Below, piece after piece: positions 6,276 through 46,759 of a stretch of DNA of 64,000 nucleotides. The position numbers and the translations under genes were made by a program. The notes below the pieces were generated by a model. That model was not told the origin of the DNA. It saw only the letters and a list, made by a program, of their open reading frames with translations, and searched no databases. The stretch comes from Acidithiobacillus sp. HP-2 (lineage in GTDB: Bacteria; Pseudomonadota; Gammaproteobacteria; Acidithiobacillales; Acidithiobacillaceae), in assembly GCF_015100155.1 (NCBI RefSeq), contig NZ_JACKZA010000011.1, positions 1 through 64,000 on the forward strand, in the 5' to 3' direction. Position 1 is the first letter of the stretch. Each line of letters opens with the position of its first letter.

Positions 6276-6549
6276 CAAATCCCCAACATAAAAAAGACGA
6301 TCATGTCGCGAATCAGCGTAGCATTGCTAACCATCGGGCGCAAAAACGTCAAAATGGATCTGTGCATGGAACAAACCCCTGTCCACCTGGCAACCACGAA
6401 GGGTTAAGAGGTATGAATAACAAGTAATCAATAAGGTATGACTTTTGGGTGACTAAAATACGAGATACGCTGACGCCTTATGACTGGTGCATTTTAGGAA
6501 ATCATATGCTGCAGATTGTGAGTTGTAGCAACTTCTGAGAAAATGAAAC

Positions 6550-24478: not shown

Positions 24479-24659
24479 AGAAAATATGGCACGCTGCGGT
24501 GATCAGGATGTCGGGCTGTGGATGCATGGACATACCCACCATGCCGTGGATTACTCCATTGGTGCAGTGCGCATTTTGTCCAATGCCTTCGGCTACCCGA
24601 GAGAGGGGACCGGCGTACAGTTGGATCAGGTCATTGCCCTGGAGGAGAAAAATTCATGA
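24442..24659 (+). pseudogene. C-terminal remnant of a metallophosphoesterase
   Basis: In the frame overlapping the end of the AAA+ gene, sequence reads MARCGDQDVGLWMHGHTHH ... ILSNAFGYPREGTG and stops at 24659. GHTHH is the C-terminal metal-binding motif of calcineurin-like phosphoesterases; the N-terminal motifs are absent. A deletion seems to have joined it to the AAA+ gene. Its stop overlaps (ATGA) the start of the next phosphatase gene. Confidence 0.7.
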
Positions 24660-25555: not shown

Positions 25556-25577
25556 AGAAATAAGGGGGAGAAAGCAT

Positions 25578-26000: not shown

Positions 26001-26109
26001 CTGGCTCTTCCGACCAGCACCTATTCGGTGCACCCGTATCTATCTATTAATATATTTATTTATGGTAAGCGGTATAACCGGAATGAGCGTGACACCTCAC
26101 ATCAAAAAT

Positions 26110-26670: not shown

Positions 26671-26893
26671 GTATCCCAACCTCAATGCAAAAAATGCATC
26701 CTGTCACAACCCGATGAGGCTTTTCCAGATCTGTGGGTAAAAACCCATCCGGTCATGTGCATGAATCGGGATAACAGTAAAAGCTTATTTACGCCCACGT
26801 CCCAGATTTGTAAGATCATCAGTAAGGAAAGACTTCTGCTGCTTTCGCAGACTTGATTGTGTTGGCCTGCCCATAGAAAAAAGGATGCCGCTC

Positions 26894-27253: not shown

Positions 27254-30220
27254 ATGACCGAACAAGAAATCGAAGAAGCCCTCATCCAGAAACTGGGCGA
27301 TTTGAAGTACAGCTATCGCCCGGATATTCATGATCGGGCCGCACTGGAAGCCAACTTCCGGCATCATTTCGAAGCCCTGAATCACGTTTCCCTGAGCGAT
27401 AGCGAATTTGCCCGATTGCTGGAGACGATTGTGACCCCCGATGTGTATGCGGCGTCTCGCATTCTGCGGGAACGCAACCATTTCGAGCGCGATGACGGTA
27501 CGGCGCTGCACTATACCCTGGTCAACATCAAGGACTGGTGCAAAAACACCTTTGAAGTGATTCATCAGCTGCGCATCAACACCGATTACAGCCATCATCG
27601 CTATGACGTGATGCTACTCATCAATGGCGTACCCGTCGTCCAGATCGAGCTCAAAACCCTGCAGATCAGCCCCCGTCGCGCTATTCAGCAAATCGTCGAA
27701 TATAAGCATGATCCCGGTAACGGCTATGCCAAGACCCTGCTCTGTTTTCTACAACTGTTCATCGTCAGTAACCGCAGTGATACCTGGTACTTCGCCAATA
27801 ACAACAGCCGACATTTTGCCTTCAATGCCGAGGAACGCTTTTTACCCCTCTACCAGTTCGCACGGGAAGACAACAGCAAGATCACCCATCTGGATGATTT
27901 TGCCGACGCCTTTCTGGCGAAATGCACCCTGGGAGAGATGATCAGCCGCTACATGGTACTGGTCGCGAGCGAACAAAAACTGCTGATGATGCGGCCGTAT
28001 CAAATCTACGCGGTTAAGGCGATCGTGGACTGTATTCACCAGCATCGCGGTAATGGCTATATCTGGCACACCACCGGCAGTGGCAAAACTCTGACCTCGT
28101 TCAAAGCCTCGACCCTCCTCAAAGACAACCCCGATATCGACAAATGCCTGTTTGTGGTGGACCGTAAAGACCTCGACCGCCAGACCCGCGATGAATTCAA
28201 CCGCTTTCAGGAAAACTGTGTAGAAGCCAACACCCACACCGGTACCTTGGTGAGCCGTCTGCTTTCTGACGACTATGCCGATAAGGTCATTGTGACCACC
28301 ATCCAGAAACTCGGTTTGGCCTTGGATGGGAATCATCGCTACCACTACAAGGACAAACTGGAACCCTTACGGCATAAGCGCATGGTCTTCATTTTCGATG
28401 AATGTCACCGCTCCCAGTTTGGCGAGAACCATCAGGCCATCAAGTCATTCTTCCCGAATGCCCAGCTTTTTGGTTTTACGGGCACCCCGATCTTTGAGCA
28501 GAACGCCAATTACCAGCAGATCGAGGGAGAACACGCTTCCTATCGCACCACCGCCGACATCTTCCAGCAGCAGCTTCATGCCTACACCATCACCCACGCC
28601 ATTGATGACCTCAATGTCCTGCGCTTTCATATCGACTACTACAAGCCCGAAGGGAAACAGGCACCGAAACCGGGTGAAGCCCTGGCCAAACGCGCCATCG
28701 TCGAAGCGATTCTCTCCAAGCATGATGCTGCTACCGCTGGACGCAAGTTCAATGCTCTGCTGGCCACCGCATCCATTGTCGATGCCATTGAATACCACAC
28801 CCTGTTCGAGACCATGCAGGCCGAGAAACAGGCCGAAAACCCCGACTATCAACCGCTGAACATTGCCTGTGTTTTCTCGCCACCACCGGAAGGGAATCAG
28901 GATGTCCTGCAAATCCAGGAAGACCTGCCCCAGGAGAAAGCCGACAATGCCCAGGATCCGGATCGCAAGAAAGCCGCCTTACAGGCCATTATGGCCATGT
29001 ACAATCACCGCTATGGTACGAGCCACCGTATCGGGGAATTCGATCTCTACTATCAGGATGTCCAAAAGCGCATCAAGGATCAGCAGTATCCCCATACCGA
29101 TCTGCCCCATACCCAGAAAATCGATATCACCATTGTGGTGGATATGCTCCTCACCGGTTTTGATTCTGCCTATCTCAATACCCTCTATGTGGACAAGAAT
29201 CTCAAGTACCACGGACTGATTCAGGCGTTCTCCCGCACTAATCGGGTGCTCAATGACACCAAGCCCTATGGGAACATTCTCGACTTTCGCCAGCAACAAT
29301 CAGCCGTAGACACCGCCATCAGCCTGTTCTCCGGACAATCCGGGGAACAGGCCAAGAAAATCTGGTTGGTGGATAAAGCCCCGGTAGTCATCGACCGTCT
29401 GCAAGGTGCTCTGGGGCAATTAGAGACCTTTCTGCAGTCACAGGGATTACCCGCTGCCCCTGAAGCCGTACCGCAGTTGCAGGGCGATGCAGCGCGCTGT
29501 CAGTTCATACAGTGCTTCAAAGAAGTACAGCGTTGCAAAACCCAATTGGATCAATACACGGATTTAACGCCCGAAGAACGGGAATGCATTGAACAGATGG
29601 TTCCGCCAGAAACCTTGCAGGGGTTTCGGGGGGTGTATCTGGATACGGCACAGCGATTACGCGAGCAAAGAGCACAAAACCGCGAGCAGACCAGTCCGGA
29701 AGTCGAGCAACTGGATTTTGAGTTTGTCCTTTTTGCCTCGGCCGTAATTGATTACGACTACATCATGACCCTGATCAGTCGTTACACGAACCCCACACCG
29801 GGCAAACAAACCATGAATCGGGAAGCACTGGTGGGATTGATTCAATCTGATGCCCAGTTCCTGGATGATCGGGAAGAGATCACCGCCTACATTGATACCC
29901 TGAAAGCGGGTAAGGGATTGGATGAATCGGCTATCAGGGAAGGTTTTGAACACTTCAAGAAGCAGAAGCAACAGCAGCGCGTACAAGAAATTGCCCAGGC
30001 GCATGGACTGGATGTCCAAGCCCTTCAGGACTTCATGGCGCAGACCCTGAGCCGGATGATTTTTGATGGGGAACAGCTCAGTGAATTACTGGCGCCGCTG
30101 CAGTTGGGTTGGAAAGCCCGCACGCAGAAAGAATCTGCCCTCATGCAGGATTTGATTCCCTTGCTGCATAAACAGGCTCAGGGACGGGAGATTTCGGGGC
30201 TGGAGGCTTATGAACAATAA
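27254..30220 (+). CDS. hsdR: Type I restriction enzyme, HsdR subunit
   Basis: 988 residues. The N-terminal PD-(D/E)XK nuclease is visible (YDVMLLINGVPVVQIELKT, residues ~116-134), followed by a superfamily-2 translocase with Walker A HTTGSGKTL (~271) and DEAH-box equivalent DECHRSQFG (~380), LFGFTGTPIF (motif III) and LLTGFDS / QAFSRTNRV (motifs V-VI). It moves DNA and cuts it far from unmethylated recognition sites, in complex with HsdM and HsdS. First gene of the operon hsdR-ORF40-hsdS-zeta-ORF72-hsdM; gene order with hsdM last is unusual. The end overlaps a 40-codon ORF. Confidence 0.95.
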   Translation: MTEQEIEEALIQKLGDLKYSYRPDIHDRAALEANFRHHFEALNHVSLSDSEFARLLETIVTPDVYAASRILRERNHFERDDGTALHYTLVNIKDWCKNTFEVIHQLRINTDYSHHRYDVMLLINGVPVVQIELKTLQISPRRAIQQIVEYKHDPGNGYAKTLLCFLQLFIVSNRSDTWYFANNNSRHFAFNAEERFLPLYQFAREDNSKITHLDDFADAFLAKCTLGEMISRYMVLVASEQKLLMMRPYQIYAVKAIVDCIHQHRGNGYIWHTTGSGKTLTSFKASTLLKDNPDIDKCLFVVDRKDLDRQTRDEFNRFQENCVEANTHTGTLVSRLLSDDYADKVIVTTIQKLGLALDGNHRYHYKDKLEPLRHKRMVFIFDECHRSQFGENHQAIKSFFPNAQLFGFTGTPIFEQNANYQQIEGEHASYRTTADIFQQQLHAYTITHAIDDLNVLRFHIDYYKPEGKQAPKPGEALAKRAIVEAILSKHDAATAGRKFNALLATASIVDAIEYHTLFETMQAEKQAENPDYQPLNIACVFSPPPEGNQDVLQIQEDLPQEKADNAQDPDRKKAALQAIMAMYNHRYGTSHRIGEFDLYYQDVQKRIKDQQYPHTDLPHTQKIDITIVVDMLLTGFDSAYLNTLYVDKNLKYHGLIQAFSRTNRVLNDTKPYGNILDFRQQQSAVDTAISLFSGQSGEQAKKIWLVDKAPVVIDRLQGALGQLETFLQSQGLPAAPEAVPQLQGDAARCQFIQCFKEVQRCKTQLDQYTDLTPEERECIEQMVPPETLQGFRGVYLDTAQRLREQRAQNREQTSPEVEQLDFEFVLFASAVIDYDYIMTLISRYTNPTPGKQTMNREALVGLIQSDAQFLDDREEITAYIDTLKAGKGLDESAIREGFEHFKKQKQQQRVQEIAQAHGLDVQALQDFMAQTLSRMIFDGEQLSELLAPLQLGWKARTQKESALMQDLIPLLHKQAQGREISGLEAYEQ

Positions 30221-30332
30221 ACAGTCCAAGAACGCGGCTACCACGCGTCTGGAAACAAAACTTTTGCAGATCGATGGATTAAGTGTGGATCACCCGCTAC
30301 GGCAGGAAGAACAGGGAAAACACAACGGATGA
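30210..30332 (+). CDS. 40-residue ORF bridging hsdR and hsdS
   Basis: ATG at 30210 lies inside the last codons of hsdR (11-base overlap), with ggag upstream, and the frame stops at 30332, overlapping the hsdS ATG by 4 bases (ATGA). The product is charged and lacks hydrophobic segments (MNNKQSKNAATTRLETKLLQ then GLSVDHPLRQEEQGKHNG). Such exact tiling is typical of translated genes, though the peptide may serve only to couple hsdS translation to hsdR. No family recognised. Confidence 0.55.
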   Translation: MNNKQSKNAATTRLETKLLQIDGLSVDHPLRQEEQGKHNG

Positions 30333-31618
30333 GCGGAACAAAACACAGTGAATTCTTGCCCAGGTTGCGGTTTCCAGAGTTTCGGGCAGCGGGAGAGTGG
30401 GAAGAAAAACAGCTTGGTATTGTCGCAAAAATTAGCGCTGAAAAGGTCAAAGATGCTTCCTGTATCCCCATGAGCATTACCTCTGGCGTTGGACTTGTTA
30501 GCCAGATGGAAAAGTTCGGGCGGATAATCGCTGGAAGTTCATATTCTAATTATCTAATTCTTAAAAAAAATTACTTCGCTTACAACAAGAGTGCAACCAA
30601 AGAGTATCCGGAGGGATTTATCGCATTGTATTTAGGCGACGAACTTGCTGCTGTACCAAACAGCATTTTCACATGTTTTCACATTAAAGGTGAGTCGCCT
30701 GTTCCACAATACATGAACTATCTATTTCTCGATAATCTGCATGGTAAGTGGTTACGGAGGTTTATAGAGGTCGGTGCTCGTGCTCATGGGTCGCTAAGTA
30801 TCACCGATGACGATTTACTTGCCTTACCAGTGCCGATACCTAGCGGTAAAACATCCATTCTCGAACAACAAAAAATCGCCGACTGCCTTTCCTCCCTCGA
30901 CGACCTGATCACGCTGGAGGCGCAAAAGCTCGATAGTCTCAAGGCCCATAAAAAAGGGCTGATGCAGCAACTTTTCCCCCGCGAAGGAGAAACACAACCC
31001 CGTCTTCGTTTTCCTGAATTTGAAAATGCTGGGGAGTGGGAAGATGGCACGTTGGACGATATAGCTACATTTAGGCGAGGGAGTTTTCCTCAGCCTTATG
31101 GGCTGCCAGAATGGTATGACGAAAAAAACGGGATGCCTTTCATTCAGGTTTTCGATGTTGGTGATGACTTTAGGCTTAAAGGTAAAACTAAAAATAGAAT
31201 AAGCAAATTAGCGGCTGAAAAAAGCGTCTTCATTCCAGAAGGCACATTAATTGTTACGTTGCAGGGCTCAATAGGCAGAGTTGCGATCACTCACTATGAT
31301 GCTTACATTGATAGGACACTGCTCATATTTGAGAGCTTTAGGAAACCCATAGAAAAAATCTTTTTTGCCCGCGTCATTCAAAACCTCTTTGATATAGAAA
31401 AGGAGCAAGCTCCAGGAGGGATTATCAAGACGATTACGAAAGAAGCACTGAGTGAATTTAAGGTTAAATTTCCGACGATCGATGAACAACACCGCATCGC
31501 CTCCTGCCTAACCAGCCTCGATGACCTCATCACCGCCCAAACCCAAAAGCTCGAAGCCCTCAAAACCCACAAAAAAGGCTTAATGCAGCAGCTATTCCCG
31601 CAGGTCTCTGAGGAATAG
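30329..31618 (+). CDS. hsdS: Type I restriction enzyme, HsdS specificity subunit
   Basis: 429 residues of two target-recognition domains and two conserved helical repeats: the segment PRLRFPEF occurs near the N-terminus and again near residue 226 at the start of the second half, and each half ends with a matching coiled helix (IADCLSSLDDLIT / IASCLTSLDDLIT, KKGLMQQLFP twice). Each TRD reads half of a bipartite DNA site. The TRD segments are clearly more AT-rich than the repeats, as usual for exchanged TRDs. Starts by ATGA overlap with the small ORF. Confidence 0.93.
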   Translation: MSGTKHSEFLPRLRFPEFRAAGEWEEKQLGIVAKISAEKVKDASCIPMSITSGVGLVSQMEKFGRIIAGSSYSNYLILKKNYFAYNKSATKEYPEGFIALYLGDELAAVPNSIFTCFHIKGESPVPQYMNYLFLDNLHGKWLRRFIEVGARAHGSLSITDDDLLALPVPIPSGKTSILEQQKIADCLSSLDDLITLEAQKLDSLKAHKKGLMQQLFPREGETQPRLRFPEFENAGEWEDGTLDDIATFRRGSFPQPYGLPEWYDEKNGMPFIQVFDVGDDFRLKGKTKNRISKLAAEKSVFIPEGTLIVTLQGSIGRVAITHYDAYIDRTLLIFESFRKPIEKIFFARVIQNLFDIEKEQAPGGIIKTITKEALSEFKVKFPTIDEQHRIASCLTSLDDLITAQTQKLEALKTHKKGLMQQLFPQVSEE

Positions 31619-31620
31619 AC

Positions 31621-32142
31621 ATGCCCACCCCCAAAATCATCATCATCGCAGGACCCAATGGCGCCGGTAAAACTACCTTTGCCCGCTCTTTTCTGCCCGA
31701 TGAAGCCCAATGCCCACGTTTCATCAATGCCGATCTGATCGCAGCCGGTCTGTCGCCCTTTGCCCCTGAAGTAGCCAACCTGCGGGCAGGCCGGTTGATG
31801 CTCGAAGAAATTGCCGCCTGCGTGCGTCGTCAAGAGAGCCTGGCCTTTGAAACCACCCTCTCTGGTCTCACTTATTTACGTCATATTCAACAATGGCGAT
31901 CACAGAGATATGACGTGGAACTGTTTTTTCTGGCCTTACCCAATGCCGAAACGGCCATTGCCCGAGTGGCCGAACGGGTGCGTCAGGGCGGTCACGATAT
32001 CCCTGAGCAGGTGATTCGCCGCCGCTTTGATTCAGGGTTGAAGCACTTCGAGCAATACTATCGATATCGCGTCAATAGCTGGGCGAAGTATGATAATAGC
32101 GGTCCAGAACCTTTACTGTTGGAATGGGGAGAAAATCCATGA
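31621..32142 (+). CDS. Zeta-toxin-like P-loop kinase
   Basis: 173 residues: IIIIAGPNGAGKTTFA (Walker A), then FINADLIAAGLSPF with the aspartate expected to act as base, ESLAFETTLSG, and an arginine-rich DSGLKHFEQYYRYRV tail. This is the COG4185/zeta-toxin group; classical zeta toxins phosphorylate UDP-N-acetylglucosamine and poison cell-wall synthesis. It starts 2 bases after the hsdS stop and overlaps the next small gene (ATGA), so it is embedded in the hsd operon. Whether it is toxic or a house-keeping kinase is not proven. Confidence 0.82.
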   Translation: MPTPKIIIIAGPNGAGKTTFARSFLPDEAQCPRFINADLIAAGLSPFAPEVANLRAGRLMLEEIAACVRRQESLAFETTLSGLTYLRHIQQWRSQRYDVELFFLALPNAETAIARVAERVRQGGHDIPEQVIRRRFDSGLKHFEQYYRYRVNSWAKYDNSGPEPLLLEWGENP

Positions 32143-32357
32143 ATACCGGCAAAGATATTGCCCAGGCCCGTAATCCGGATTTGCGTGCTTCCATGGCAGC
32201 CATGCGCCGCGCCGCCCAACTGGCCAGACAGATCGCCATACAAACCAATACCGGCATTGTGATGGTCCGGGATGGGCAGTGCGTCCGTATCTCGGCCCAG
32301 GAACTTCGCGAAGCCGATGCTGCGGCTCAGCAATCATCCGCAACCGCCGATGTCTGA
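32139..32357 (+). CDS. Small protein paired with the zeta-like kinase (candidate antitoxin)
   Basis: 72 residues, start at ATG 32139 overlapping the kinase stop by 4 bases. Helical N-terminus (DIAQARNPDLRASMAAMRRA, then AQLARQIAIQTNTG) followed by IVMVRDGQCVRISAQELRE. COG4185 kinases are often followed by a small gene of similar size; by position and coupling it may be an inhibitor or regulator. No DNA-binding motif seen. hsdM follows 35 bases later. Confidence 0.55.
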   Translation: MNTGKDIAQARNPDLRASMAAMRRAAQLARQIAIQTNTGIVMVRDGQCVRISAQELREADAAAQQSSATADV

Positions 32358-32392
32358 GCGACACGCTTTAACCCAAGGAATCCTCTGCCATC

Positions 32393-34000
32393 ATGACTGA
32401 AATCGACCAAAAACAATTGGGCAACACCCTCTGGGGTATTGCCGATCAACTACGCGGTGCCATGAATGCCGATGACTTCCGCGATTACATGCTTTCCTTC
32501 CTGTTTCTACGTTATCTGTCCGATAACTACGAAATGGCCGCAGCCAAGGAACTGGGGCCAGATTATCCACGACTGGAAGCCGGTGACCGCCGTACCCCAC
32601 TGGCCCTCTGGTATGCCAACAATCCCGAGGATATCGACGCTTTTGAAACGCAGATGCGCCGCAAAATCCACTATGTGATTCGCCCCGAATACCTCTGGGG
32701 CAGCATCTCGGAACTGGCCCGCACCCAAAACGCGGAATTGCTCCATAAGCTGCAAAAGGGCTTCGATTACATTGAGAACGAATCCTTCGCCAGTACCTTT
32801 AATGGCCTCTTTTCGGAGATCAATCTGAACTCCGAAAAACTGGGTAAGGACTACAGTGCCCGCAACCAACAGCTATGCACCGTTATTCAGGCCATCGCAG
32901 CAGGGTTATCGCAATTCTCCACCAATCAGGATGTCCTGGGCGACGCTTACGAATATCTGATCGGTCAGTTTGCCGCAGGATCGGGTAAAAAGGCGGGCGA
33001 GTTTTACACCCCGCAACAGATTTCCAGCATCCTCTCCGGCATCGTCACCCTCGACAGTCAGGACCCGGCTACTGGAAAGAAAAAACAACTGGACAGTGTT
33101 CTCGATTTTGCCTGTGGTTCAGGATCGCTACTGCTGAATGTCCGGCACCGTATGGGATCGCATGGCATCGGCAAAATCTTCGGACAGGAAAAGAACATCA
33201 CTACCTATAACCTGGCGCGCATGAACATGCTGCTCCATGGGGTCAAAGACTCCGAATTTGAAATCTACCATGGCGACACCCTGGCGAATGATTGGGACTA
33301 TCTCAGGGAAACCAATCCCGCCAAGGCCCCGCAGTTTGATGCAGTAGTCGCTAATCCGCCCTTCAGTTATCGCTGGGAACCCAACAGTGCGTTGAGTGAA
33401 GACATGCGCTTCAAGAACTACGGTCTGGCGCCCAAATCCGCCGCTGACTTTGCCTTCTTGTTGCATGGCTTTCATTTCCTCAAACCTGAGGGCGTCATGG
33501 CCATCATTCTGCCCCATGGTGTGCTGTTTCGCGGGGGTGCGGAAGAACGCATCCGCACCAAACTCCTCAAGGATGGAAACATCGACACCGTTATCGGTCT
33601 GCCCGCCAATCTCTTTTTCTCCACCGGCATTCCTGTCTGCATCCTCGTCCTGAAAAAGTGCAAGAAACCCGATGACGTGCTCTTCATCAACGCCGCCGAA
33701 CACTTTGAGAAAGGCAAACGCCAGAATCGCTTACGCCCTGAAGATATCGACAAGATCATCGATACCTATCAGTTTCGCCGGGAGGAAGATCGTTACGCCC
33801 GCAGAGTCCCCATGACCGAGATTGCGGACAATGATTACAACCTCAATATCAGCCGGTATATCAGTACAGCAACCCCCGAAGAGGAAATTGATCTGCAAAA
33901 AATTCACGCTGATCTAGCGTCCTTGAGTCGTGCCATTGATGCATCTAAAGAGAAACATAATGAGTTTCTTCGTGAGCTTGGGTTAGAGATTTTGCCTTAA
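32393..34000 (+). CDS. hsdM: Type I restriction-modification, HsdM methyltransferase
   Basis: 535 residues: N-terminal HsdM helical domain, S-adenosylmethionine motif LDFACGSGSLLL (about residue 238) and catalytic motif VVANPPFSY (NPPF, about residue 320) of N6-adenine methyltransferases. It protects the site recognised by HsdS and is needed for restriction. It is the last gene of the hsd operon, downstream of the zeta-like pair. The C-terminal part is helical and contacts HsdS. Confidence 0.95.
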   Translation: MTEIDQKQLGNTLWGIADQLRGAMNADDFRDYMLSFLFLRYLSDNYEMAAAKELGPDYPRLEAGDRRTPLALWYANNPEDIDAFETQMRRKIHYVIRPEYLWGSISELARTQNAELLHKLQKGFDYIENESFASTFNGLFSEINLNSEKLGKDYSARNQQLCTVIQAIAAGLSQFSTNQDVLGDAYEYLIGQFAAGSGKKAGEFYTPQQISSILSGIVTLDSQDPATGKKKQLDSVLDFACGSGSLLLNVRHRMGSHGIGKIFGQEKNITTYNLARMNMLLHGVKDSEFEIYHGDTLANDWDYLRETNPAKAPQFDAVVANPPFSYRWEPNSALSEDMRFKNYGLAPKSAADFAFLLHGFHFLKPEGVMAIILPHGVLFRGGAEERIRTKLLKDGNIDTVIGLPANLFFSTGIPVCILVLKKCKKPDDVLFINAAEHFEKGKRQNRLRPEDIDKIIDTYQFRREEDRYARRVPMTEIADNDYNLNISRYISTATPEEEIDLQKIHADLASLSRAIDASKEKHNEFLRELGLEILP

Positions 34001-34031: not shown

Positions 34032-34847
34032 ATGGAAAAAGAATCTCTTATCAAGGTTTTCAATGAAATGAAGTCTATCATTCCAGATTCTTCAGGAAAA
34101 GAAAATGAGTTCAAAATCGATGAATTCGAGAGCTTCTTGACAAAAATGCAAAAGAAAGCCATAGATAAAGCTCAAAAAATCAAGAATTCAATGAAAAATG
34201 ATCACCCGATGTTTGGGCCTATCAACTTGTTGCGCCCTATGGGTCGCCGGCACAATGAATTGTCTTATACAAAGCTTCTGGCCTATTTCCTTACTCCCAA
34301 TGAACCTCATGGCTTCGGAGACAAAATTACGCATGCATTATTGAATAAAATTTTTGGATCAGAATTTGAGTATGAGCAGATATTTGTTGACAGTGAGTAT
34401 TACTGCAACAAAGATTCAAGGATTGATCTTTGGATGACTGGAAAATATGGACATGAGTCCAGCAATAAACAAAAGTTTCTTGTAATCATAGAAGCAAAAG
34501 TAGGTGCCTCTTTCGGCGGAAACCAGTTAGCAAGATATTCTAAATGTGCCAGTAAATGGAAAAGAGAAAATAAATCAGAAATAGTGCATAAAATTCTATT
34601 GATTCCTGATAATAAAAGGTCATGGAATGCAAGGGAAAATGATTGGCAGGTTTTATTATTCTCAGACTTGTTTAATATAATCTGGAAAGTCATTGATGAT
34701 AATACAGATAAACCTGGATTTCATTATGCTAGATTCTATCTAACAAGCATCTATCAAGATGTTTTAGATTTAGATTTAAGCCCAGAACCTAAATGCGATC
34801 CATATCCATATTTACGATTTCCATTGGATTCAGAACAGGAGGATTGA
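34032..34847 (+). CDS. PD-(D/E)XK nuclease family protein
   Basis: 271 residues. Nuclease signature: RIDLWMTGKYG around residue 130 followed by KFLVIIEAKVGA around 150 (D ... E-x-K), preceded by RRHNELSYTKLLAYFLTP near residue 73, which matches the PDDEXK_4 type in which a conserved N-E-x-x-x-T-x-x-L-A element precedes the core. Function is unknown; relatives occur in defence islands. It is far richer in A+T than hsdM just upstream, so it was probably acquired separately. Followed after 2 bases by a partner gene. Confidence 0.75.
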   Translation: MEKESLIKVFNEMKSIIPDSSGKENEFKIDEFESFLTKMQKKAIDKAQKIKNSMKNDHPMFGPINLLRPMGRRHNELSYTKLLAYFLTPNEPHGFGDKITHALLNKIFGSEFEYEQIFVDSEYYCNKDSRIDLWMTGKYGHESSNKQKFLVIIEAKVGASFGGNQLARYSKCASKWKRENKSEIVHKILLIPDNKRSWNARENDWQVLLFSDLFNIIWKVIDDNTDKPGFHYARFYLTSIYQDVLDLDLSPEPKCDPYPYLRFPLDSEQED

Positions 34848-35470: not shown

Positions 35471-36505
35471 TCAAGCTTGGGCTTTTGGCAAACGGTTATA
35501 CATTGCTGCCATAGCCCCAGTGCGTTCGCGCAATTCCATAAAAAGTGCGGGTGGTTCAAGCACCCGCAGGTTTTCCCCAAAGCTCAGAATCCACCAGCGA
35601 AGGGCTTCTGTGTCCTCTACCTGCGCGCTGACTTCACACCAGCGTCTCCCGATCTTCCCTATGACCTGATCACTGGAGAGGGGGCGTTCCTGAATGAGCC
35701 GTAGGAGCGATTTGTCTATTTGTAAACGCAATAGAATCTTTTCTGAACCTCTGGATAGCTGCAAGCTACTCCGTACAAAATCCTGAAGTACAAAAGCGGC
35801 TGTTGGCTGGCTTGCGCTTTCTTGCATGATTTCAATATGGGCGATGCGATGGGCGGCGAATAACGCAGGTTCTGCGTGGTTCTGACTTTTCCCGACCATA
35901 TAGAGCACCCCATCTCTTAGCGCTAATCCCCAGATGCTGAGAACATGATTTTTGATTGATTGGTTCACGGCCCGATACTGGATGGTTACCTGTTTACTGG
36001 TTTCTATGGATTCAGCCAGTTGCATCAGTAAGTTGGGTGATAATCGGGGCGCTTTCTGTACGCTGTCTGACAAGACCACCACATGTTTGCGCCAGTTCGC
36101 CAATGTCGTACGCGCCAAGGCACGTTCTGCTTGTTGGCGATAAATTTCCAAATCTTCCAGCAGGCTCCTGGGCAACAAATACTGCATCTCCTCCAAACCC
36201 AAGAGAATCGCCAGTGCCGCAGATGGCTCAAGATATGGGGCCTGAATCCCTGGTGATTGATGTGCCCAGAACCAGCCATGCGGATTGCCATCATCGCACG
36301 CGATAGGGTAGTACCGCTCAAGCCAAATCAGATCGCGCTGAATGGTGCGTAAGGTTGTCTGCTGGTTCATTTCTGACAATCGTTTCTGCAATTGCATTAC
36401 CGTGCGCTTTCCATGCCCGGCCTGGGGCAGGTGTTGAAGGATGGCAAGTCTCCGAAAGAACTGCATTTCATCACGCATAAAAGCCCCCATCTGAAAATTT
36501 TGCAT
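35471..36505 (-). CDS. WYL-domain transcriptional regulator
   Basis: About 344 residues if started at ATG 36505 (MQNFQMGAF); other ATGs at 36490 and 36478 (MRDEMQFFRRL) are possible. N-terminal winged-helix (FFRRLAILQHLPQAG ... LSEMNQQTTLRTIQRDLIWLER), then a WYL-type ligand domain (IQYRAVNQSIKNHVLSIWGLALRDGVLYMVG) and a C-terminal extension. Such regulators (BrxR, CapW group) repress defence operons until a nucleic-acid signal appears. It is divergent from the double AAA+ gene and a palindrome lies at its start, consistent with it controlling both. Confidence 0.8.
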   Translation of the reverse strand: MQNFQMGAFMRDEMQFFRRLAILQHLPQAGHGKRTVMQLQKRLSEMNQQTTLRTIQRDLIWLERYYPIACDDGNPHGWFWAHQSPGIQAPYLEPSAALAILLGLEEMQYLLPRSLLEDLEIYRQQAERALARTTLANWRKHVVVLSDSVQKAPRLSPNLLMQLAESIETSKQVTIQYRAVNQSIKNHVLSIWGLALRDGVLYMVGKSQNHAEPALFAAHRIAHIEIMQESASQPTAAFVLQDFVRSSLQLSRGSEKILLRLQIDKSLLRLIQERPLSSDQVIGKIGRRWCEVSAQVEDTEALRWWILSFGENLRVLEPPALFMELRERTGAMAAMYNRLPKAQA

Positions 36506-36523
36506 GCGACGATTATGGTCGCA
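36505..36523. promoter_or_regulatory. Palindrome between WYL regulator and AAA+ gene
   Basis: TGCGAC (36505-36510) and GTCGCA (36518-36523) are exact inverted copies separated by 7 bases. It lies in the 60-base divergent control region (or at the very start of the regulator gene if the first ATG is used). A symmetric site of this size suits a dimeric winged-helix repressor such as the WYL protein. Confidence 0.5.
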
Positions 36524-36565
36524 ACGTGCTGATAGCATAGTTCTCATTCGCCAGGAGAACCAGTC

Positions 36566-38659
36566 ATGTCCAAAAAATCCAAGCCTATCCATAAATCTCG
36601 TCCATCAGCTGCAATTGACGACGCTTGCGATTGGGATTGTGAACCAGATGTCCCGGTCTTCATTTCTTGGGAAGACCCGCATTATCTTTGGGCATGCCAC
36701 TATGCCCTGCGGATACTCAGTCACGACGGCCACCGATTAGGGAGTCATTGGTGGTTTATGAAGGATGATTTTGCTCACGAACTCTTGGAGTGGGACGAAC
36801 ATCGCTATCAAAAACATTCAATTCAAGGACGCTTGCGTCGTGCCCGCAGCCTATTGAGGCGCAAAAAAATACCAGAAACCGCCTGTGAGCTGGACCGGAA
36901 TGTCGATGCCCTAGCTTCCCGTTTGGGATTCGGTAACGTAGAACAAAAAATCATCCACCTGGCCGCTTTGGTCGATGAATATCCCATCCTGGGAATATTT
37001 TTTGAGGATACGGATGATTGGAATACGCACCAGAACCATACCCGCATCGCCATTGCTTTGGATCTTGATCCATCCCGGATATTACAAGCTTTAGGACCTC
37101 GTGAAGGGCTGCGTAGCAGTGGGCTTTTAAAACATCTGGAACGCGATGGTTTTGGGTTGATGCCGGGACTTGCTACCGCGTTGCTGCAGGAACAGACGGA
37201 TGAAACGCAATTGTTTTCTGGGTTATTCCAGAGTCTACCGCCCTCAGCCTTTAATTTGGCGGATTTTCCCCACCTGCAAGCGCATAGCCGTATCTTGACG
37301 CGCATATTGACTGGTGCCCAACAAGATCAGACGCAAGGTGTGCATATTCTCCTGCACGGTGCCCCTGGAACCGGTAAAACCGCCTACGCTCGGGCACTGG
37401 CGGCAGCTATGGAATGGTGTGTTGTAGAAGTTCGACATGAAGACGCCAAGCAGGAACCCCTGGAAGGAGATACCCGTTTTCAGGCCTTTGCTCTCTGCCA
37501 GCGGGCTTTGGCCAAACAAAGTCAGACGCTTGTTCTTTTCGATGAAGTGGAAGATGTATTTGGTGAGCCCCACCCCTGGTTTCCGCTGCCACCCCGACAT
37601 AAAGCCTGGACCAATCATCTGTTGGAACAGGCCAAGGTGCCGACAGTCTGGATTACCAACCGTATCGAGAGTATTGACCCCGCTTATCGCCGTCGATTTC
37701 TCTACACCCTGGAATTTCGCAATCCTCCCAAGCGCGTTCGTCAGAAAATGCTGGATGCCCAAATGCAATCAGTTGAACTACCTGAGGGGCAAACCGCACT
37801 TTGGGCAGAGCGTAGCGATTTATCGCCTGGGCGCATCCAGCAGGCATCCACAATTGCTACGCTCTGCAGACCAGAATCGGCTACTGAGAGTGCGGAACTC
37901 ATTGAGCACGTCTGGTCTCTCCATCAGTCAGCCCAAATTCCTGACGCGTGGACTGCCTTTGACCCGACCCTGATTGAATCGGATACTGACTTGAACAGCG
38001 TGCTTTCTTCCTTACAAAAGCACCAGAATGCCACGCTCTTGTTTCATGGCCCTTCTGGTACTGGAAAAACTGCGTTCGCACGTCATCTGGCGGATCAGTT
38101 GGGGAAAACTCTCTATACCCGCAGCCCCTCCGATCTGCTCAGTAAGTATGTCGGAGACAATGAACAGAATCTGGCAGCGGCTTTCCGAGAAGCTCTGGGA
38201 GAAATCCTTTTTCTGGATGAAGTCGATAGCTTTCTGCAGGAGCGCGCGCATGCCCAGCATAACTGGGAAATCAGCATGGTCAACGAACTGCTACAACGCA
38301 TGGAATCCTTCGCCGGCATACTGATACTGGCTACTAATCTCCCAGAGACACTGGATCGCGCAATGTATCGACGCATGGACCTGAGTATTGGATTCCAGCC
38401 GCTGGGTAAAGCCAAACGTCAGTATCTCTGGCAACAATTGCTCAAGGTGCTGGAAATTCCTGATGCGCCCGATTACGTGCGGAAAAACGCAGGATTAGCG
38501 CATCTGGTACCCGCCGATCTGGCTCGGGTCATTCGGCGCCACCGATTCCAACCGTTTCGGGAAGGCAAAGACCTTTGGCAGTTTCTGGAACAAAGCGAAA
38601 CCCAGCGGCGGAGGGGTGCCCTCCAGGAGGTAGGATTCACAGCCCATTTAACCTGCTGA
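36566..38659 (+). CDS. Tandem AAA+ ATPase
   Basis: 697 residues with an N-terminal helical part (~260), then two AAA+ modules: Walker A HGAPGTGKT (~264-272), Walker B LVLFDEVEDVF (~321) and a second HGPSGTGKT (~494-502) with Walker B ILFLDEVDSFL (~545), both with downstream NLPE/YRRR regions containing arginine fingers. The second module resembles FtsH/Cdc48-type cores. No protease or nuclease domain attached. Divergent to the WYL regulator, and heading a plus-strand series. Its task is unknown; a remodelling ATPase of a mobile-element or defence locus is a reasonable guess. Confidence 0.8.
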   Translation: MSKKSKPIHKSRPSAAIDDACDWDCEPDVPVFISWEDPHYLWACHYALRILSHDGHRLGSHWWFMKDDFAHELLEWDEHRYQKHSIQGRLRRARSLLRRKKIPETACELDRNVDALASRLGFGNVEQKIIHLAALVDEYPILGIFFEDTDDWNTHQNHTRIAIALDLDPSRILQALGPREGLRSSGLLKHLERDGFGLMPGLATALLQEQTDETQLFSGLFQSLPPSAFNLADFPHLQAHSRILTRILTGAQQDQTQGVHILLHGAPGTGKTAYARALAAAMEWCVVEVRHEDAKQEPLEGDTRFQAFALCQRALAKQSQTLVLFDEVEDVFGEPHPWFPLPPRHKAWTNHLLEQAKVPTVWITNRIESIDPAYRRRFLYTLEFRNPPKRVRQKMLDAQMQSVELPEGQTALWAERSDLSPGRIQQASTIATLCRPESATESAELIEHVWSLHQSAQIPDAWTAFDPTLIESDTDLNSVLSSLQKHQNATLLFHGPSGTGKTAFARHLADQLGKTLYTRSPSDLLSKYVGDNEQNLAAAFREALGEILFLDEVDSFLQERAHAQHNWEISMVNELLQRMESFAGILILATNLPETLDRAMYRRMDLSIGFQPLGKAKRQYLWQQLLKVLEIPDAPDYVRKNAGLAHLVPADLARVIRRHRFQPFREGKDLWQFLEQSETQRRRGALQEVGFTAHLTC

Positions 38660-38717
38660 ATTCATCAACACCGGATACAGTTTGTTTACATTGTGTTTTT
38701 TTAAGAAGGAGTTTTCC

Positions 38718-39044
38718 ATGAAAAAATTGATCCGTTTAATTGCCGAAGCCAAAGAACTGGAGGACTGCAAAATGATTTTGCAGTTGGTGGTCGAAGACGA
38801 AAAACTGGTTGCCCAGGATCATTTTGGTTACCAAAATGAAGAAGGCGATATTTACCCGTTAATTTTGTATGCCCCGGACTCTACTCATGAGGTCATGCAA
38901 AAAATGGAATTTGGTGCGTGTTGCGATATTGTTGCCACGACCAATTTATTTACCAAACGCATCATCGTCGGTGAGTATTTCACGTTGATCGAGGATAAAG
39001 ATGAGTACACCTACCAAATCACGCATGTGACGGAAATGATGTAG
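38718..39044 (+). CDS. Small unrecognised protein after the tandem AAA+ gene
   Basis: 108 residues, start ATG 38718 behind aaggag (9 bases). Begins LIRLIAEAKELEDCKMILQL and contains a compact hydrophobic beta pattern (DIYPLILYAPDSTHEVMQKM). No domain recognised. It lies 58 bases after the AAA+ gene and may be its accessory. A strong hairpin follows. Confidence 0.55.
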   Translation: MKKLIRLIAEAKELEDCKMILQLVVEDEKLVAQDHFGYQNEEGDIYPLILYAPDSTHEVMQKMEFGACCDIVATTNLFTKRIIVGEYFTLIEDKDEYTYQITHVTEMM

Positions 39045-39061
39045 TTGCACCTCAAGTTGAT

Positions 39062-39090
39062 GCACTGCCAGCACGCTGGGCTGGCAGTGC
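39062..39090 (+). terminator. Perfect 11-bp stem hairpin
   Basis: gcactgccagc (39062-39072) pairs exactly with gctggcagtgc (39080-39090) around a 7-base loop. No T-run follows, so it may be a Rho-independent terminator of weak tail, a processing site or an mRNA-stabilising structure between the AAA+ unit and the next gene. Confidence 0.5.
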
Positions 39091-39139
39091 CTTCATCCAT
39101 ATCCGTCGATTACCCACGATATTGCCCAAGGAGGACATA

Positions 39140-39316
39140 ATGGCTCAATGCCGATATTGCAAAGCGATTGGCATCAACATGAAACGTTGTAAGGTTTGTG
39201 GTAGTTTTTGGTGTGCTTGGTGTTCGCGTCAGGGGCGCGGACCTTACCCTCAGGAGACTGCTGTTAACCGCTGTCCCTATTGTGGGAAATACAATTGCAT
39301 AGAAACCATGCGATAG
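39140..39316 (+). CDS. Small zinc-ribbon-like protein
   Basis: 58 residues, start ATG 39140 with aaggagg. Cysteine pairs CRYC, CKVC, CAWC and CPYC are spaced as in two zinc ribbons (MAQCRYCKAIGINMKRCKVC ... RCPYCGKYNC). Probably nucleic-acid or protein binding; partner unknown. On the plus strand between the AAA+ unit and the ADP-ribosylglycohydrolase gene. Confidence 0.6.
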   Translation: MAQCRYCKAIGINMKRCKVCGSFWCAWCSRQGRGPYPQETAVNRCPYCGKYNCIETMR

Positions 39317-39403: not shown

Positions 39404-40435
39404 ATGAATCCCACCATTTCACCTACGCCAGAAGACCGTATTCTGGCTGGTTTCATGGGAGGTGCATTGGGTGATGCTTTGGGGGAGCCGGTAGAATTTC
39501 TGAGTGTTGAGAATCGGCTAAGTCGCTGGGGACATCAAGGCGTAATGGAGTTTGTGCATCCAGGTCAATGTGGGCATTTTACGGATGATACGCAACTGAC
39601 TTTGTTTACCGCCGAAGCGTTGATTCTGCATGCCAGCACAGGGGAACCTTTGCAAATTGCCCTGCATAAAGCCTACATGCGCTGGTTATTGACCCAGGAA
39701 GTGCCCTGTCGTTTACCTGCTGATGATTTCAGTAGTGAGGGGTTTTTGCTGGATGAGCTAGTGTTACATCAGCGAATGGGACCTGGACGGACTTGTTTGA
39801 CTGCGTTGGCGCAGGCAGCAGATTGGGGCATACCTGCCATCAACAATAGTAAGGGATGCGGTGGGTTAATGCGGGTAGCTCCCATTGGTTTCTGGGCAGC
39901 TATACACCCAGAACATTGGCCATTACAACGTACCTTTCAGGTGGCAAGCAGCGCTGCGCAACTCACCCATGGTCATCTCTGTGGTTACCTTTCTGCAGGG
40001 ACTTTCGCCGTTCTATTACAGGAAATTATCTCGGACACACCACTTAATGAGGCCTTGGCCGTGGTGATGGATATATTGTCAGAACTTGAGGAAACAGGTC
40101 AGAACGTATTGTCTGCATTGCAGCAGGCCAACGATCTGGCGGAAAAGGGAGTAAACTGGTCCGCTGCCTCTATGCTTTTAGGAAAAGGGTGGGTTGCAGA
40201 AGAGATATTGGCCATCAGCATTTATTTGGGATTGACCGCGCCAGACTTTTTAACCGGTATCCGTTGGGCAGCCAATCATCCGGGTGATGCGGATTCCATT
40301 GGGGCTATCAGCGGCCAATTGTTGGGTGCAATTTGGGGGATTCAGACTATTCCGGAAGACTGGATAGAACGACTGGATGGCAAGGGAGTTATCTACTTAT
40401 TGGTTTCGCAGTTCCTGAATGGGACCCAATGGTAG
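39404..40435 (+). CDS. ADP-ribosylglycohydrolase family protein (DraG-like)
   Basis: 343 residues; start ATG 39404 behind aggagaagg. Family motifs: MGGALGDALGEPVEF near the N-terminus, HFTDDTQLTLFTAE (first metal site), NNSKGCGGLMRVAP and the C-terminal HPGDADSIGAISGQ (second metal site). Such enzymes remove ADP-ribose from proteins, nucleic acids or small molecules. No ADP-ribosyltransferase gene is seen adjacent. The nearby Xre-RES pair also concerns NAD+/ADP-ribose chemistry (finding below). Confidence 0.85.
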   Translation: MNPTISPTPEDRILAGFMGGALGDALGEPVEFLSVENRLSRWGHQGVMEFVHPGQCGHFTDDTQLTLFTAEALILHASTGEPLQIALHKAYMRWLLTQEVPCRLPADDFSSEGFLLDELVLHQRMGPGRTCLTALAQAADWGIPAINNSKGCGGLMRVAPIGFWAAIHPEHWPLQRTFQVASSAAQLTHGHLCGYLSAGTFAVLLQEIISDTPLNEALAVVMDILSELEETGQNVLSALQQANDLAEKGVNWSAASMLLGKGWVAEEILAISIYLGLTAPDFLTGIRWAANHPGDADSIGAISGQLLGAIWGIQTIPEDWIERLDGKGVIYLLVSQFLNGTQW

Positions 40436-41060: not shown

Positions 41061-41136
41061 ACTATCGAAAAAGGCACCAGACCCATGGTGCAGGGTGGCT
41101 TATCCCGAAAGACGTATAACAACCTACAGAGAGATC

Positions 41137-42126
41137 ATGAAAAAACGTAGTGGAAGAATTAATGCCATCCTCGGAGAAATCATGCCCATCGCACATGCCG
41201 TGGGAAATCCGCTGTCGTTGGATACTGACCTGAGTCGCATTCAGACCATACTGTATAATCTCTTATGCGAACGTGACGAAGAAGCTTTTCAGGCCGTTCT
41301 GGAAACCTTCCGCGCAGAAGGATTGGTCGATCTGTGGCAGTTCTGCTGGAATCAAGCCACGGAAATGGCCTGTGCCAAGTCCTATGAAAACGGTTTTCGG
41401 AGTCTCCTGATTGCCGTGCCTTTCCTGGCAAATTGGTCCGGAGAATGCAACGCGACTGACCGCAAAACACTGACCAAGGTGTTGAAGCAACACCAATTGA
41501 TTCCGCCACGGGGCAAGCTGCAATGGCTGCTGCAACCCCAATCGATTTATCACTTGCGCGCCAACAGTCCCCTGCAGTTATGGATAATGAATACGCCCGG
41601 AGCGAACGCACCTTATCCTTGGAATTACAACCGGATGACGGTTCCAGGCATGTACCTGCTGGTAGGCCGATTGGAGTTTCCCGAACAGAATACGCCCCAA
41701 TGGCCCGATCCTGAACAGCTCGCCCGCGATCAACGTGAAGCCCTGGGATGGCCAGAAGGATCACTGGACGCTTGCGCGCCCTTACATTTCTTTTTGGAAA
41801 TCGGTCAGGATGAACCAGAAACCGAAGAGGATCACCTGCTGGAAATCAGCTTTACGGTCTTGGGCGCCCTCAAAAAACAGCTCGAAGAAGAACAGCTTTC
41901 TGCAGAAGACTGCACGGTTTGTGTGGAGGCCAGAAGCGATAATCACTTAACCGTGACGCTTCAGCCCAAGTATCACCGTAAAGCGCTGCTGTGTAATGTC
42001 GAGTACAACGCCACCCGCATTCATCGCCTGGCACTCATGCACAAGATCGAACAGGTTTTGACCGATTACGGGTTTTCTGTAGAAGCAGGCGCGTCTTTGC
42101 TTTCACAGCCGACACGCCTGCATTAA
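41137..42126 (+). CDS. Uncharacterised acidic protein, distant paralogue of the 43.1-kb gene
   Basis: 329 residues, start ATG 41137 behind gagaga. Rich in Glu/Gln; contains ERDEEAFQAVLETFRAEGL and VDLWQFCWNQATEMACAKSY followed by LLIAVPFLANWS. The gene at 43115-44128 has the same order of elements (VEEDEETLQTISLLL, DASEDFWDYARERAEMF, STLFAVPVRHP), so the two look like distant paralogues. No catalytic motif recognised. Confidence 0.55.
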   Translation: MKKRSGRINAILGEIMPIAHAVGNPLSLDTDLSRIQTILYNLLCERDEEAFQAVLETFRAEGLVDLWQFCWNQATEMACAKSYENGFRSLLIAVPFLANWSGECNATDRKTLTKVLKQHQLIPPRGKLQWLLQPQSIYHLRANSPLQLWIMNTPGANAPYPWNYNRMTVPGMYLLVGRLEFPEQNTPQWPDPEQLARDQREALGWPEGSLDACAPLHFFLEIGQDEPETEEDHLLEISFTVLGALKKQLEEEQLSAEDCTVCVEARSDNHLTVTLQPKYHRKALLCNVEYNATRIHRLALMHKIEQVLTDYGFSVEAGASLLSQPTRLH

Positions 42127-42783: not shown

Positions 42784-43110
42784 ATGAGCATCTTGCAAGA
42801 ATTGGAAGCCGCCAAAAAAGCCAAAGAAGCCGCTGATAAACGGGTGGAGGAGCTTCTCAAACAAGCCAAGGACGAAGGATTGGCAGAAATACGCCGGATC
42901 GTCGAGGACTTGGGATTGACGGCCAAGGACCTCCTGAAACTGGTTCCTTCTGAGCCGCAGAAAACGCGTCGCGTGCGCAAGTCCCCAGCCTTTTGGTATC
43001 AGCATCCAACGGATCCCCATCTGGTCTGGAAAGGGGCAGGACCCAAACCTGCCTGGTTCAAGGCGTTGGGTGAAGAAGCCCAACAAGCCTGCAAAAAAGC
43101 GGCGGGTTGA
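42784..43110 (+). CDS. H-NS family histone-like protein
   Basis: 108 residues: an N-terminal coiled-coil oligomerisation helix (SILQELEAAKKAKEAADKRV) and a C-terminal DNA-binding domain with the H-NS hallmark of basic residues around aromatic/glycine positions (HPTDPHLVWKGAGPKPAWF). Mobile elements often carry H-NS homologues that silence AT-rich genes of the element. It lies between the two distant paralogues and shares their strand. Confidence 0.82.
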   Translation: MSILQELEAAKKAKEAADKRVEELLKQAKDEGLAEIRRIVEDLGLTAKDLLKLVPSEPQKTRRVRKSPAFWYQHPTDPHLVWKGAGPKPAWFKALGEEAQQACKKAAG

Positions 43111-43114
43111 ATCG

Positions 43115-44128
43115 ATGAAAGCCTCTACCGGCAGTAACGTGGCCTCTCCGCAGGCGCTTGCCATCACCGCACTGGCAACGCGCTATCTGTTGGACAATGA
43201 ATTTTCTGTGGAACCCCAATTGGGGGAAGCTGTGGACGCATTACTCGTCGAAGAGGACGAAGAAACCCTGCAAACCATTTCCCTGCTGCTGTATGAAAAA
43301 GATCCGGATGCCTCTGAAGATTTCTGGGATTATGCGCGGGAACGTGCAGAAATGTTCCTGACCGAAGAAGGGCAGGTCAGCACCCTGTTTGCCGTACCGG
43401 TACGCCATCCAGCATTCATTCAGGGATTTTCGGCAGAACGGGCTGCGGCTTCCTTTTTTACGCAAGGACTTGTCTGCGCAAATGCTAAAGTCACCTTTTA
43501 TCCCGCCCCGGTAGATGGCGGGCAACTGCTGAATATGTCTCCGGTAGAAGTGTTTCGCCTCCATACGGCACTGGGCCAGGACTATCGGGAAGCCGCTACC
43601 TTGCTCAGTACACAAACCTATGCTGAAGGCACGCATCCCTATATTTGCTTCATCGGTATTGTCAGCTACTCCGCGCAGATGCCGGGGCATTGTGTGGCTT
43701 GGGAGTTACCTTCGGATGACTTTGTGCGCCGCATTCAAAACTGGACCGAACAATCGGATCTGGCCGTGTTGGGTCTTAATAGGCAGCAAAACGCGCTGGG
43801 ATATCCGGGTCGAATGGTGTTTGCGGTTCGCGAAGGGGCACAGGAATATCAGGATATCGTTCTGGAAGAATTCGTAACCCGAGTGGTTGGGGAAAAGTCG
43901 GGCCAGATTCTCGCCCGTCTGCAGGATCACCCGATTATGGAAGGGCTCACGCTGGAACTGTATGATGCCGCCCAAGAGTATGGGTCACTCTATATACCCT
44001 GGAAGCAGTTGGATCAGACGCGTGCGGATGTCATTGAGCGGATATTCGATTTACTCCGAGAATCGGGTGTCATGGGCCTCATGTTTCAGGACTACGAGGC
44101 GGGTGAAATATCCCGAGTGCAGCACTAA
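43115..44128 (+). CDS. Uncharacterised protein, distant paralogue of the 41.1-kb gene
   Basis: 337 residues, start ATG 43115, 4 bases after the H-NS-like stop, so translation is likely coupled. N-terminal half shares element order with the 41.1-kb protein; the C-terminal half (VVGEKSGQILARLQD, ELYDAAQEYGSLYIPWKQLD) is specific. Overall acidic, globular, no signal or membrane segment. Function unknown; the duplicated arrangement around an H-NS-like gene suggests a conserved module. Confidence 0.55.
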   Translation: MKASTGSNVASPQALAITALATRYLLDNEFSVEPQLGEAVDALLVEEDEETLQTISLLLYEKDPDASEDFWDYARERAEMFLTEEGQVSTLFAVPVRHPAFIQGFSAERAAASFFTQGLVCANAKVTFYPAPVDGGQLLNMSPVEVFRLHTALGQDYREAATLLSTQTYAEGTHPYICFIGIVSYSAQMPGHCVAWELPSDDFVRRIQNWTEQSDLAVLGLNRQQNALGYPGRMVFAVREGAQEYQDIVLEEFVTRVVGEKSGQILARLQDHPIMEGLTLELYDAAQEYGSLYIPWKQLDQTRADVIERIFDLLRESGVMGLMFQDYEAGEISRVQH

Positions 44129-45614: not shown

Positions 45615-46016
45615 ATGACGCAAACCGCAGTCATCTCAGACAGAGAAAACAAAATCCACGATCGCATAGTCTTGGCAAAGATGCTCATGAAGGCCTTTGA
45701 GCTCTGGATGGTGGACAATGAAGGGCAACTTGCCTTACTGGGTTTGGCGGCCGAGAACCGCGCAGCCCTCAGTCGCTATCGCAAAGGGGAACCCTTAGGC
45801 GCAAATAGGGATCTGCTTGAACGTGCGGGCCATTTACTTGCTATCCATAAAAATCTACGATTGCTTTTTCCGCATGACCGGGATTTGGCTTATCAGTGGA
45901 TGACCACCCGTAACCGTGCGTTCGATTATCGGACTCCCGTAGAAGTGGTTCGCGAGTGGGGATTTACCGGATTGTTGATGGTTCGAGCCTATCTGGATCA
46001 TGCCAGGGGCGGATGA
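45615..46016 (+). CDS. Xre/MbcA/ParS-type antitoxin of a RES toxin
   Basis: 133 residues: helical N-terminal DNA-binding part and a C-terminal toxin-binding domain of the MbcA/ParS/Xre family ([15 protein letters not shown] ... [18 protein letters not shown]). It neutralises the RES protein encoded by the overlapping downstream gene (ATGA overlap at 46013-46016) and normally represses its own promoter. Good ribosome site (gggggatc). Confidence 0.82.
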
Positions 46017-46759
46017 TTGTGGCGGAGTCATTTTATGACGGTCTTACCCTGGCGGATACGCACCATACCTTGATTCGCAATATCATCAGTTTGCGGGTAT
46101 CGGAAGACCTGTTTAACGATCTGTCGGTTAGCCCAGAAGACTGGACTGTGGCACAACAGTACGAAGCCGCTGCCAAGCCGCCCCACTATACTTCCCAGGC
46201 GCCGGCCATTAACCGACCCTTCGAGGAAGCGGAATGGTTCGCTGCTATCTGGTTTCCATTTAAAAACTGGACGGTAAGCCGATACAGCGATGGTTCCTTT
46301 GGCGTTTGGTATGGTGCGGATACGGTGGAAACCTCCGTTTACGAAACGGTACACCACTGGAGGTCACGGCTGTTGCGCGATGCAGGCTTTGAGCAGATGG
46401 TGATTTCTGGTGGTCGGGAAAGCATTACCGTGGATCGTTTATTATATGGGGTCCGTTGTGACGCTGCTTTGGTGGACCTGCGCCCACATGTCGCAGAGTA
46501 TCCCGCGCTGGTAGATGCAGAAAGTTACCATTTTACGCAGCCGATAGGAATCCGATTCAAGACTGAAGGACACCCCGGGCTGGTTACCATCTCCGCACGA
46601 TGTATCGGGGATGTGTTTGCTGTGCTGAATCCGGAGGTGTTATCGCATCCCAAAATTCAGTCCTATTTGACGTATCGACTGACGCTACATGGAGTGCAGG
46701 TGAATCGGGAAGCTGGCGATTCGAAAGGGGCGGATGCGGCATGGATGTGTGTCCCCTAG
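46013..46759 (+). CDS. RES-domain NAD+-consuming toxin
   Basis: 248 residues. The RES core is visible: [20 protein letters not shown] (conserved Arg and Tyr) and [19 protein letters not shown] (Tyr and Glu) near residues 70-115, followed by the family tail. Known RES toxins degrade NAD+ and stop growth. Expressed from the Xre antitoxin gene with a 4-base overlap. It sits in the same island as the ADP-ribosylglycohydrolase. Confidence 0.85.

Follow-up and report, generated by a model that had tools for sequence, protein, structure and literature searches.

In the first 64,000 nucleotides of contig NZ_JACKZA010000011.1 of Acidithiobacillus sp. HP-2 (assembly GCF_015100155.1), hereafter called the window, the genes for a WYL-domain regulator and for a tandem AAA+ ATPase diverge from an intergenic region that contains a palindromic operator common to both. 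The regulator (335 residues, minus strand, 35471 to 36478) is a DriD/PafBC-like protein of winged helix-turn-helix (wHTH)-WYL-WCX architecture (Pfam WCX, 9e-15; WYL, 6e-9), whose start codon, the ATG at 36478, is fixed by homologues that open with M-R-E-E-x-Q-F-F-R-R or a similar sequence. The ATPase (697 residues, plus strand, 36566 to 38659) matches PF00004 twice (1.4e-40), i.e., it comprises two full AAA modules. An earlier description of this DNA, made from its letters alone (the sequence-only reading), had proposed such a divergent pair, and the Pfam matches and coordinates bear it out. The gap of 60 bases given there is corrected to 87 bp by the supported start codons, and the exact 6-7-6 inverted repeat seen in it is present at positions 36505 to 36523, as TGCGAC-GATTATG-GTCGCA.

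Taken alone, this palindrome is not significant: when the gap is shuffled by dinucleotides, 17.5% of the shuffles contain one with arms of at least 6 and a spacer of at most 12 nucleotides. Its significance comes from its conservation across related loci. All four divergent loci, namely, the window, L090 (from an Acidobacteria metagenome-assembled genome), and L016 and L017 (from the same bacterial family), have GCGAC-N7-GTCGC in the interval bounded by the start codons of the two genes, while the remainder of the gap has diverged; relative to the window, the ATPases of these loci are 44 to 46% identical, and the WYL proteins are 41 to 45% identical in an alignment without that of L090. An exact GCGAC half-site at a gap of 7 is present in 14 of 54 loci that have a WYL gene no more than 6 kb away, making it the best of 1024 half-sites, the other 1023 of which occurred in at most 4 loci each (mean, 0.07). 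When the spacer was varied for GCGAC, gaps of 3 to 6, 8, and 10 gave no locus, a gap of 9 gave two, and a gap of 11 gave one.

A matrix was built from the GCGAC-N7-GTCGC sites of the family loci. Of 41 close WYL-linked loci, 26 have a site near the start of the ATPase gene according to this matrix, as do 11 of 66 loci without a WYL gene nearby; random segments drawn from these loci gave a site in 1.8% of cases. The operator of the window scores 21.6 bits, and no other site in the 64 kb exceeds 11 bits. The genome itself harbors just three exact GCGAC-N7-GTCGC sites, fewer than those of a reversed control pattern, and their scarcity makes the control look local. The regulated locus that the sequence-only reading postulated is very probably controlled through the palindrome. 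In two genomes of one family (L056 and L057), operators precede the ATPase gene, yet neither genome yielded a WCX-type WYL gene.

The position of the operator relative to the promoter was determined from 40 aligned promoters, independently of the matrix. A -10-like hexamer is phased 17 to 19 bp downstream of the operator center, with a mean best match of 4.08 of 6 positions; the best of 2000 shuffles reached 3.02, so that none of them was as good. With the -10 at this distance from its center, the operator occupies the position of the -35 element. In the window, the corresponding element of the promoter directed toward the ATPase gene is gaTAGCAT (plus strand, 36531 to 36538), which is weak. 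A sigma-70 scan called no promoter in the WYL-ATPase intergenic gap, the outcome to be expected from an operator standing in for the -35 hexamer.

The sequence-only reading had likened the regulator to the repressors BrxR and CapW, which share its domain architecture and have a palindromic operator near a promoter. When the WYL family profile was compared with solved structures, the best matches were to DriD (7e-18 to 3e-17), including entries 7u02, 7tzv, 9pfq, and 8tp8, followed by PafBC (1e-16), whereas CapW (1e-4) and BrxR (1e-3) matched more weakly. On the basis of near-identical alignments, we take 7u02, 8tp8, and 9cu3 to be DriD. The entries 7tzv, 9pfq, 9pfv, and 9pga are DriD according to the published work, in which the consensus site, ATACGAC-N7-GTCGTAT, covers the -35 and keeps a constant spacing to the -10 (PMC12340889). 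DriD is switched on by single-stranded DNA (ssDNA) bound in its WYL domain and then activates transcription (PMC12340889). Both proteins are of the wHTH-WYL-WCX type and share a CGAC-N7-GTCG core palindrome over the -35, with a -10 at fixed distance, the latter established here at the level of the family. With this shared core, -35 position, and spacing, the operator and promoter layout of the window agree with those of DriD. By sequence, therefore, the regulator resembles DriD and PafBC more closely than BrxR and CapW, and neither its protein match nor the core of its site supports the label first given to it.

Each module of the ATPase has Walker A and B motifs, a sensor-1 Asn, and two Arg fingers, which are invariant or nearly so across 34 relatives; the second module (D2) has a KYVG pore loop, and the first (D1) lacks an aromatic one. 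The AlphaFold model, with a predicted local distance difference test (pLDDT) score of 85, retrieved Rix7, Cdc48, NVL, and p97 as best Foldseek matches (Z of 19 to p97). It also predicts an all-helical N-terminal domain at residues 38 to 217 or thereabouts, where p97 has its N domain. The model thus describes a Cdc48/p97/Rix7-like ATPase with a new N-terminal helical domain, which shares with Cdc48, p97, Rix7, and NVL the two classic AAA modules, the Arg fingers, the D2 pore loop, and the fold, but differs from them in that predicted domain and in an overall identity of about 20%. Residues 102 to 676 match phrog_10401 (8e-79), indicating that relatives of the ATPase occur in phages.

A single-sequence scan of genome contigs gave no hits, and a profile scan did. 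The ATPase family is carried by 44 of 397 genomes sampled evenly across the phylum, and the ATPase is present in 2 of the 27 other genomes of the window's own family. Linkage was assessed in 47 ATPase-carrying genomes with a distance limit of 6 kb. A WCX-type WYL gene lies within that limit of the ATPase gene in 13 cases versus 0.17 expected (P of about 1e-20), showing that the co-occurrence suspected earlier reflects a real pair. In the genome of the window and in genomes G022 and G026, this WYL gene is present in a single copy, which adjoins the ATPase gene each time. Many ATPase copies belong to other subfamilies (e.g., the Variovorax type), with neither a WYL gene nor an operator nearby. 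The sequence-only reading had named an ATPase that stands alone in most genomes as evidence against its proposal; this is half borne out, as most copies in the phylum sample have no WYL gene nearby. The surrounding region looks like an integrative element, with a tyrosine integrase gene at 55191 to 56375 and a type I restriction-modification system at 27254 to 34000.

Downstream of the ATPase, the plus strand carries genes for a 108-residue orphan protein (38718 to 39044) and a 58-residue CxxC zinc-ribbon-like orphan protein (39140 to 39316; no Pfam match at its cutoff), separated by a hairpin without a T tract (39062 to 39090; fold z-score, -2.35) that was not classed as terminator-like. The first of these genes, 58 bp from the ATPase gene, is probably cotranscribed with it. 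All these features had been listed in the sequence-only reading, which overlooked the gene immediately beyond them, coding for an ADP-ribosylglycohydrolase (ARG; plus strand, 39404 to 40435; PF03747, 1.7e-56). The ARG of the window is 62% identical to that of L016 and 61% identical to that of L090, and the three proteins, at 61 to 71% identity among themselves, exceed the identity of the ATPases or the WYL proteins to those of the window. In L016 and L090, moreover, the ATG of the ARG gene overlaps the WYL stop codon (ATGA). This coupling and the high identity of the ARGs show that the ARG is coinherited with the pair and is a genuine member of the locus in this clade. L017 has no local ARG gene, and the one in its genome, of another subfamily, is about 79 kb away. 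Across the ATPase-carrying genomes, ARG genes were found near the ATPase gene in 3 cases versus 0.1 expected (P of about 1e-4).

The two orphans do not behave as conserved partners. No relative of the 108-residue protein was found in 57 close genomes, 398 genomes of the phylum, plasmids, or viral contigs, and none of the zinc-ribbon protein in 40 relative genomes. The single-sequence fold of the former was uninformative (pLDDT, 41), and a comparison with the c95 proteins encoded after the ATPase gene in L090 and L017 gave no support for homology (hhalign probability, 0.4%). The gene directly 3′ of the ATPase gene is a variable one: it codes for a 245-residue PADLOC PDC-M15A candidate in L016, a trypsin-like protease in L017, a c95 protein in L090, and the 108-residue orphan in the window. 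On the other side of the regulator lies a PD-(D/E)XK nuclease gene (PDDEXK_4; plus strand, 34032 to 34847; PF14281, 4e-17; PADLOC candidate PDC-S26, 2e-16), for which the window has no separate operator. Relatives of this nuclease adjoin the ATPase in L090 and sit behind an operator in L018, and it is possibly an accessory of the locus, of uncertain membership. In L018 (G029:C6, 9242 to 12364), the ATPase is split into two overlapping frames, by pseudogenization or a frameshift, while two operators are kept, one of them before the PD-(D/E)XK gene.

Elsewhere in the window, two proteins of about 350 residues without Pfam matches (41095 to 42126 and 43070 to 44128) resemble each other at the N terminus and are perhaps paralogues. 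Two calcineurin-like phosphoesterases accompany an AAA (AAA/AAA_5) ATPase (22949 to 26685) and may form a separate conserved unit with it. An Xre/MbcA antitoxin gene and a RES-domain gene (45615 to 46759), a pair of the NAD-degrading RES-type toxin-antitoxin kind, lie inside the same element.

The operator is found before other genes in other branches, including those coding for Sir2 (L049 and L120), RtcB (L060), a PTP-type phosphatase (L105), and an ARG (L135), and elsewhere before genes for calcineurin-like and PP2C phosphatases, a tubulin-like protein, and PD-(D/E)XK proteins. Genome G303 carries a second WYL gene, whose product is 71% identical, and there the operator (25.6 bits) is located 49 bp upstream of a gene that is followed by those for BrxA and BrxB (L213, G303:C1:3104001-3116000, 3287 to 6770). 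One type of WYL protein and one operator therefore serve two systems in a single genome, the second being bacteriophage exclusion (BREX). With BREX behind the operator in that genome and PD-(D/E)XK nucleases behind it elsewhere, the link to defense proposed in the sequence-only reading is plausible, and the locus itself may be defensive. Two further gene sets recur around the WYL-ATPase pair. In L006, L093, and L172 (with similar sets in L005 and L010), the pair is followed by or near genes for an unknown protein of about 410 residues, a phospholipase D-like protein, and an SNF2 helicase, a candidate multigene system. Near the pair in L120, L139, L128, L049, and L072 lies the gene for a conserved protein of about 220 residues (cluster c24; the member scanned has no Pfam match).

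On balance, we favor, with moderate confidence, a DriD-type switch that controls an unfoldase-centered stress or defense module on an integrative element. A dimer of the WYL protein would bind GCGAC-N7-GTCGC, at the position that a -35 hexamer would take in the ATPase promoter. Its signal would most likely be ssDNA or a related nucleic acid sign of damage or phage replication, upon which the regulator would drive, or less likely release, transcription of the genes for the Cdc48-like hexameric unfoldase and the proteins cotranscribed with it. The unfoldase may thread or remodel protein targets, e.g., phage proteins or damaged or ADP-ribosylated host proteins, the linked ARG may strip ADP-ribose from macromolecules, and the exchangeable nuclease or protease neighbors may act as effectors. 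A control site kept across many bacteria, and found also before ADP-ribose, nuclease, and phage defense genes, looks like the hallmark of a switchable, modular emergency response rather than of a chance neighborhood.

Several observations weigh against this DriD-type switch. The neighbors are highly variable, and a defense island with unrelated cargo could produce part of the pattern; the proximity of ARG genes across all genomes is modest, and the ARG gene of the window has no operator of its own; many ATPase copies have no WYL gene nearby; and the -10 of the window is a weak match. The sign of control could also be either, as BrxR sites likewise overlap the -35 while BrxR represses. A regulator of the BrxR/CapW type might then silence an ATPase-effector pair in uninfected cells, the ATPase serving as sensor or motor. 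Such repression would agree with the common architecture, with the palindrome over the -35 bound by BrxR, whose half-sites are 5 nucleotides apart, and with the WYL paralogue and operator ahead of brxA and brxB in G303. We nevertheless consider it unlikely, given a WYL profile far nearer to DriD and PafBC, the CGAC-N7-GTCG core of DriD, and the absence of a BREX or cyclic oligonucleotide-based antiphage signaling system (CBASS) core gene adjoining the locus.

DriD and PafBC are DNA damage regulators, and the locus might accordingly be a stress regulon, of the housekeeping or the mobile-element kind, with no part in antiviral defense, made up of an SOS-independent damage response, RNA repair or ADP-ribose removal, and an unfoldase for protein quality control. 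To this we assign a low probability: RtcB, Sir2, phosphatases, and ARG behind the operator would suit it, as would the ATPase subfamilies devoid of WYL and operator, but the patchy distribution of the ATPase, its occurrence on integrative elements, the rapid exchange of nuclease and protease neighbors, and the BREX operon behind the same operator speak against it. That only the WYL protein and the ATPase form a unit, the other neighbors being passengers of a defense island and the ARG present by chance, appears decidedly improbable. Neighbors do vary between loci, and the 108-residue and zinc-ribbon genes are orphans, but ARGs have been retained in three of the four clade members at higher identity than the ATPases, two of them overlapping the WYL stop codon.

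More tentatively, and with rather less confidence than in the DriD-type switch itself, we propose that the loci form a previously undescribed mobile and modular immune regulon. In it, a DriD-type WYL protein and the operator TGCGACa-N5-tGTCGCA would link a Cdc48-like unfoldase to exchangeable partners, namely, ADP-ribose hydrolases, Sir2, RtcB, nucleases, proteases, and even BREX, and ssDNA from phage replication or damage would trigger defense by protein unfolding. What was a vague adjacency of WYL and ATPase genes becomes a testable regulon, whose defined operator allows any genome to be searched for it. The findings also suggest that the ssDNA-sensing mechanism of DriD, known from a chromosomal DNA damage response, is reused for mobile defense-type loci, including BREX in one genome.

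Compared with known systems, the locus differs from the DriD regulon in what is controlled, namely, a Cdc48-like ATPase locus on a mobile element instead of didA, bapE, recJ, and dnaG. As the sequence-only reading had stated, it lacks BREX and CBASS core genes: none was matched among ten locus proteins, apart from a weak PglZ hit (0.017), or among the restriction-modification and other neighbors tested. The D2 module resembles the IetA ATPase of IetAS (PADLOC, 1e-38), but IetA models span about 260 to 395 positions and match one module, and no IetS subtilase or protease match was found among the neighbors of the window ATPase with Pfam and PADLOC; membership in IetAS was rejected at an IetA score of 114.6 bits versus a curated cutoff of 510. 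Close counterparts are the ARG-centered systems against viral ADP-ribosylation predicted by Iyer et al. (2022; PMC9503650, section 3.8), for which no experimental test was found in the searchable literature. These comprise WYL or Nudix regulators, phosphatases, small peptide-binding chaperones, and variable nucleases, and AAA proteins are not mentioned in that paper (PMC9503650). As in those systems, the ARG gene is linked to that of a WYL regulator, through the ATGA coupling in L016 and L090 and within the same locus in the window, and is accompanied by variable restriction endonuclease-fold genes. Phosphatases stand behind operators in the relatives L105 and L060; none lies beside the ARG of the window, whose calcineurin-like genes are about 13 kb away. 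No ADP-ribosyltransferase was detected among the adjacent genes scanned, but at a distance of 5.5 kb there is the RES-domain gene (45956 to 46759). In contrast to the predicted systems, the present locus is centered on a tandem AAA+ unfoldase and a defined operator, which would put a Cdc48-like unfoldase together with ADP-ribose removal at the core of such loci. The locus thus overlaps the ARG-WYL class of Iyer et al. and adds to it an unfoldase and a DriD-type operator.

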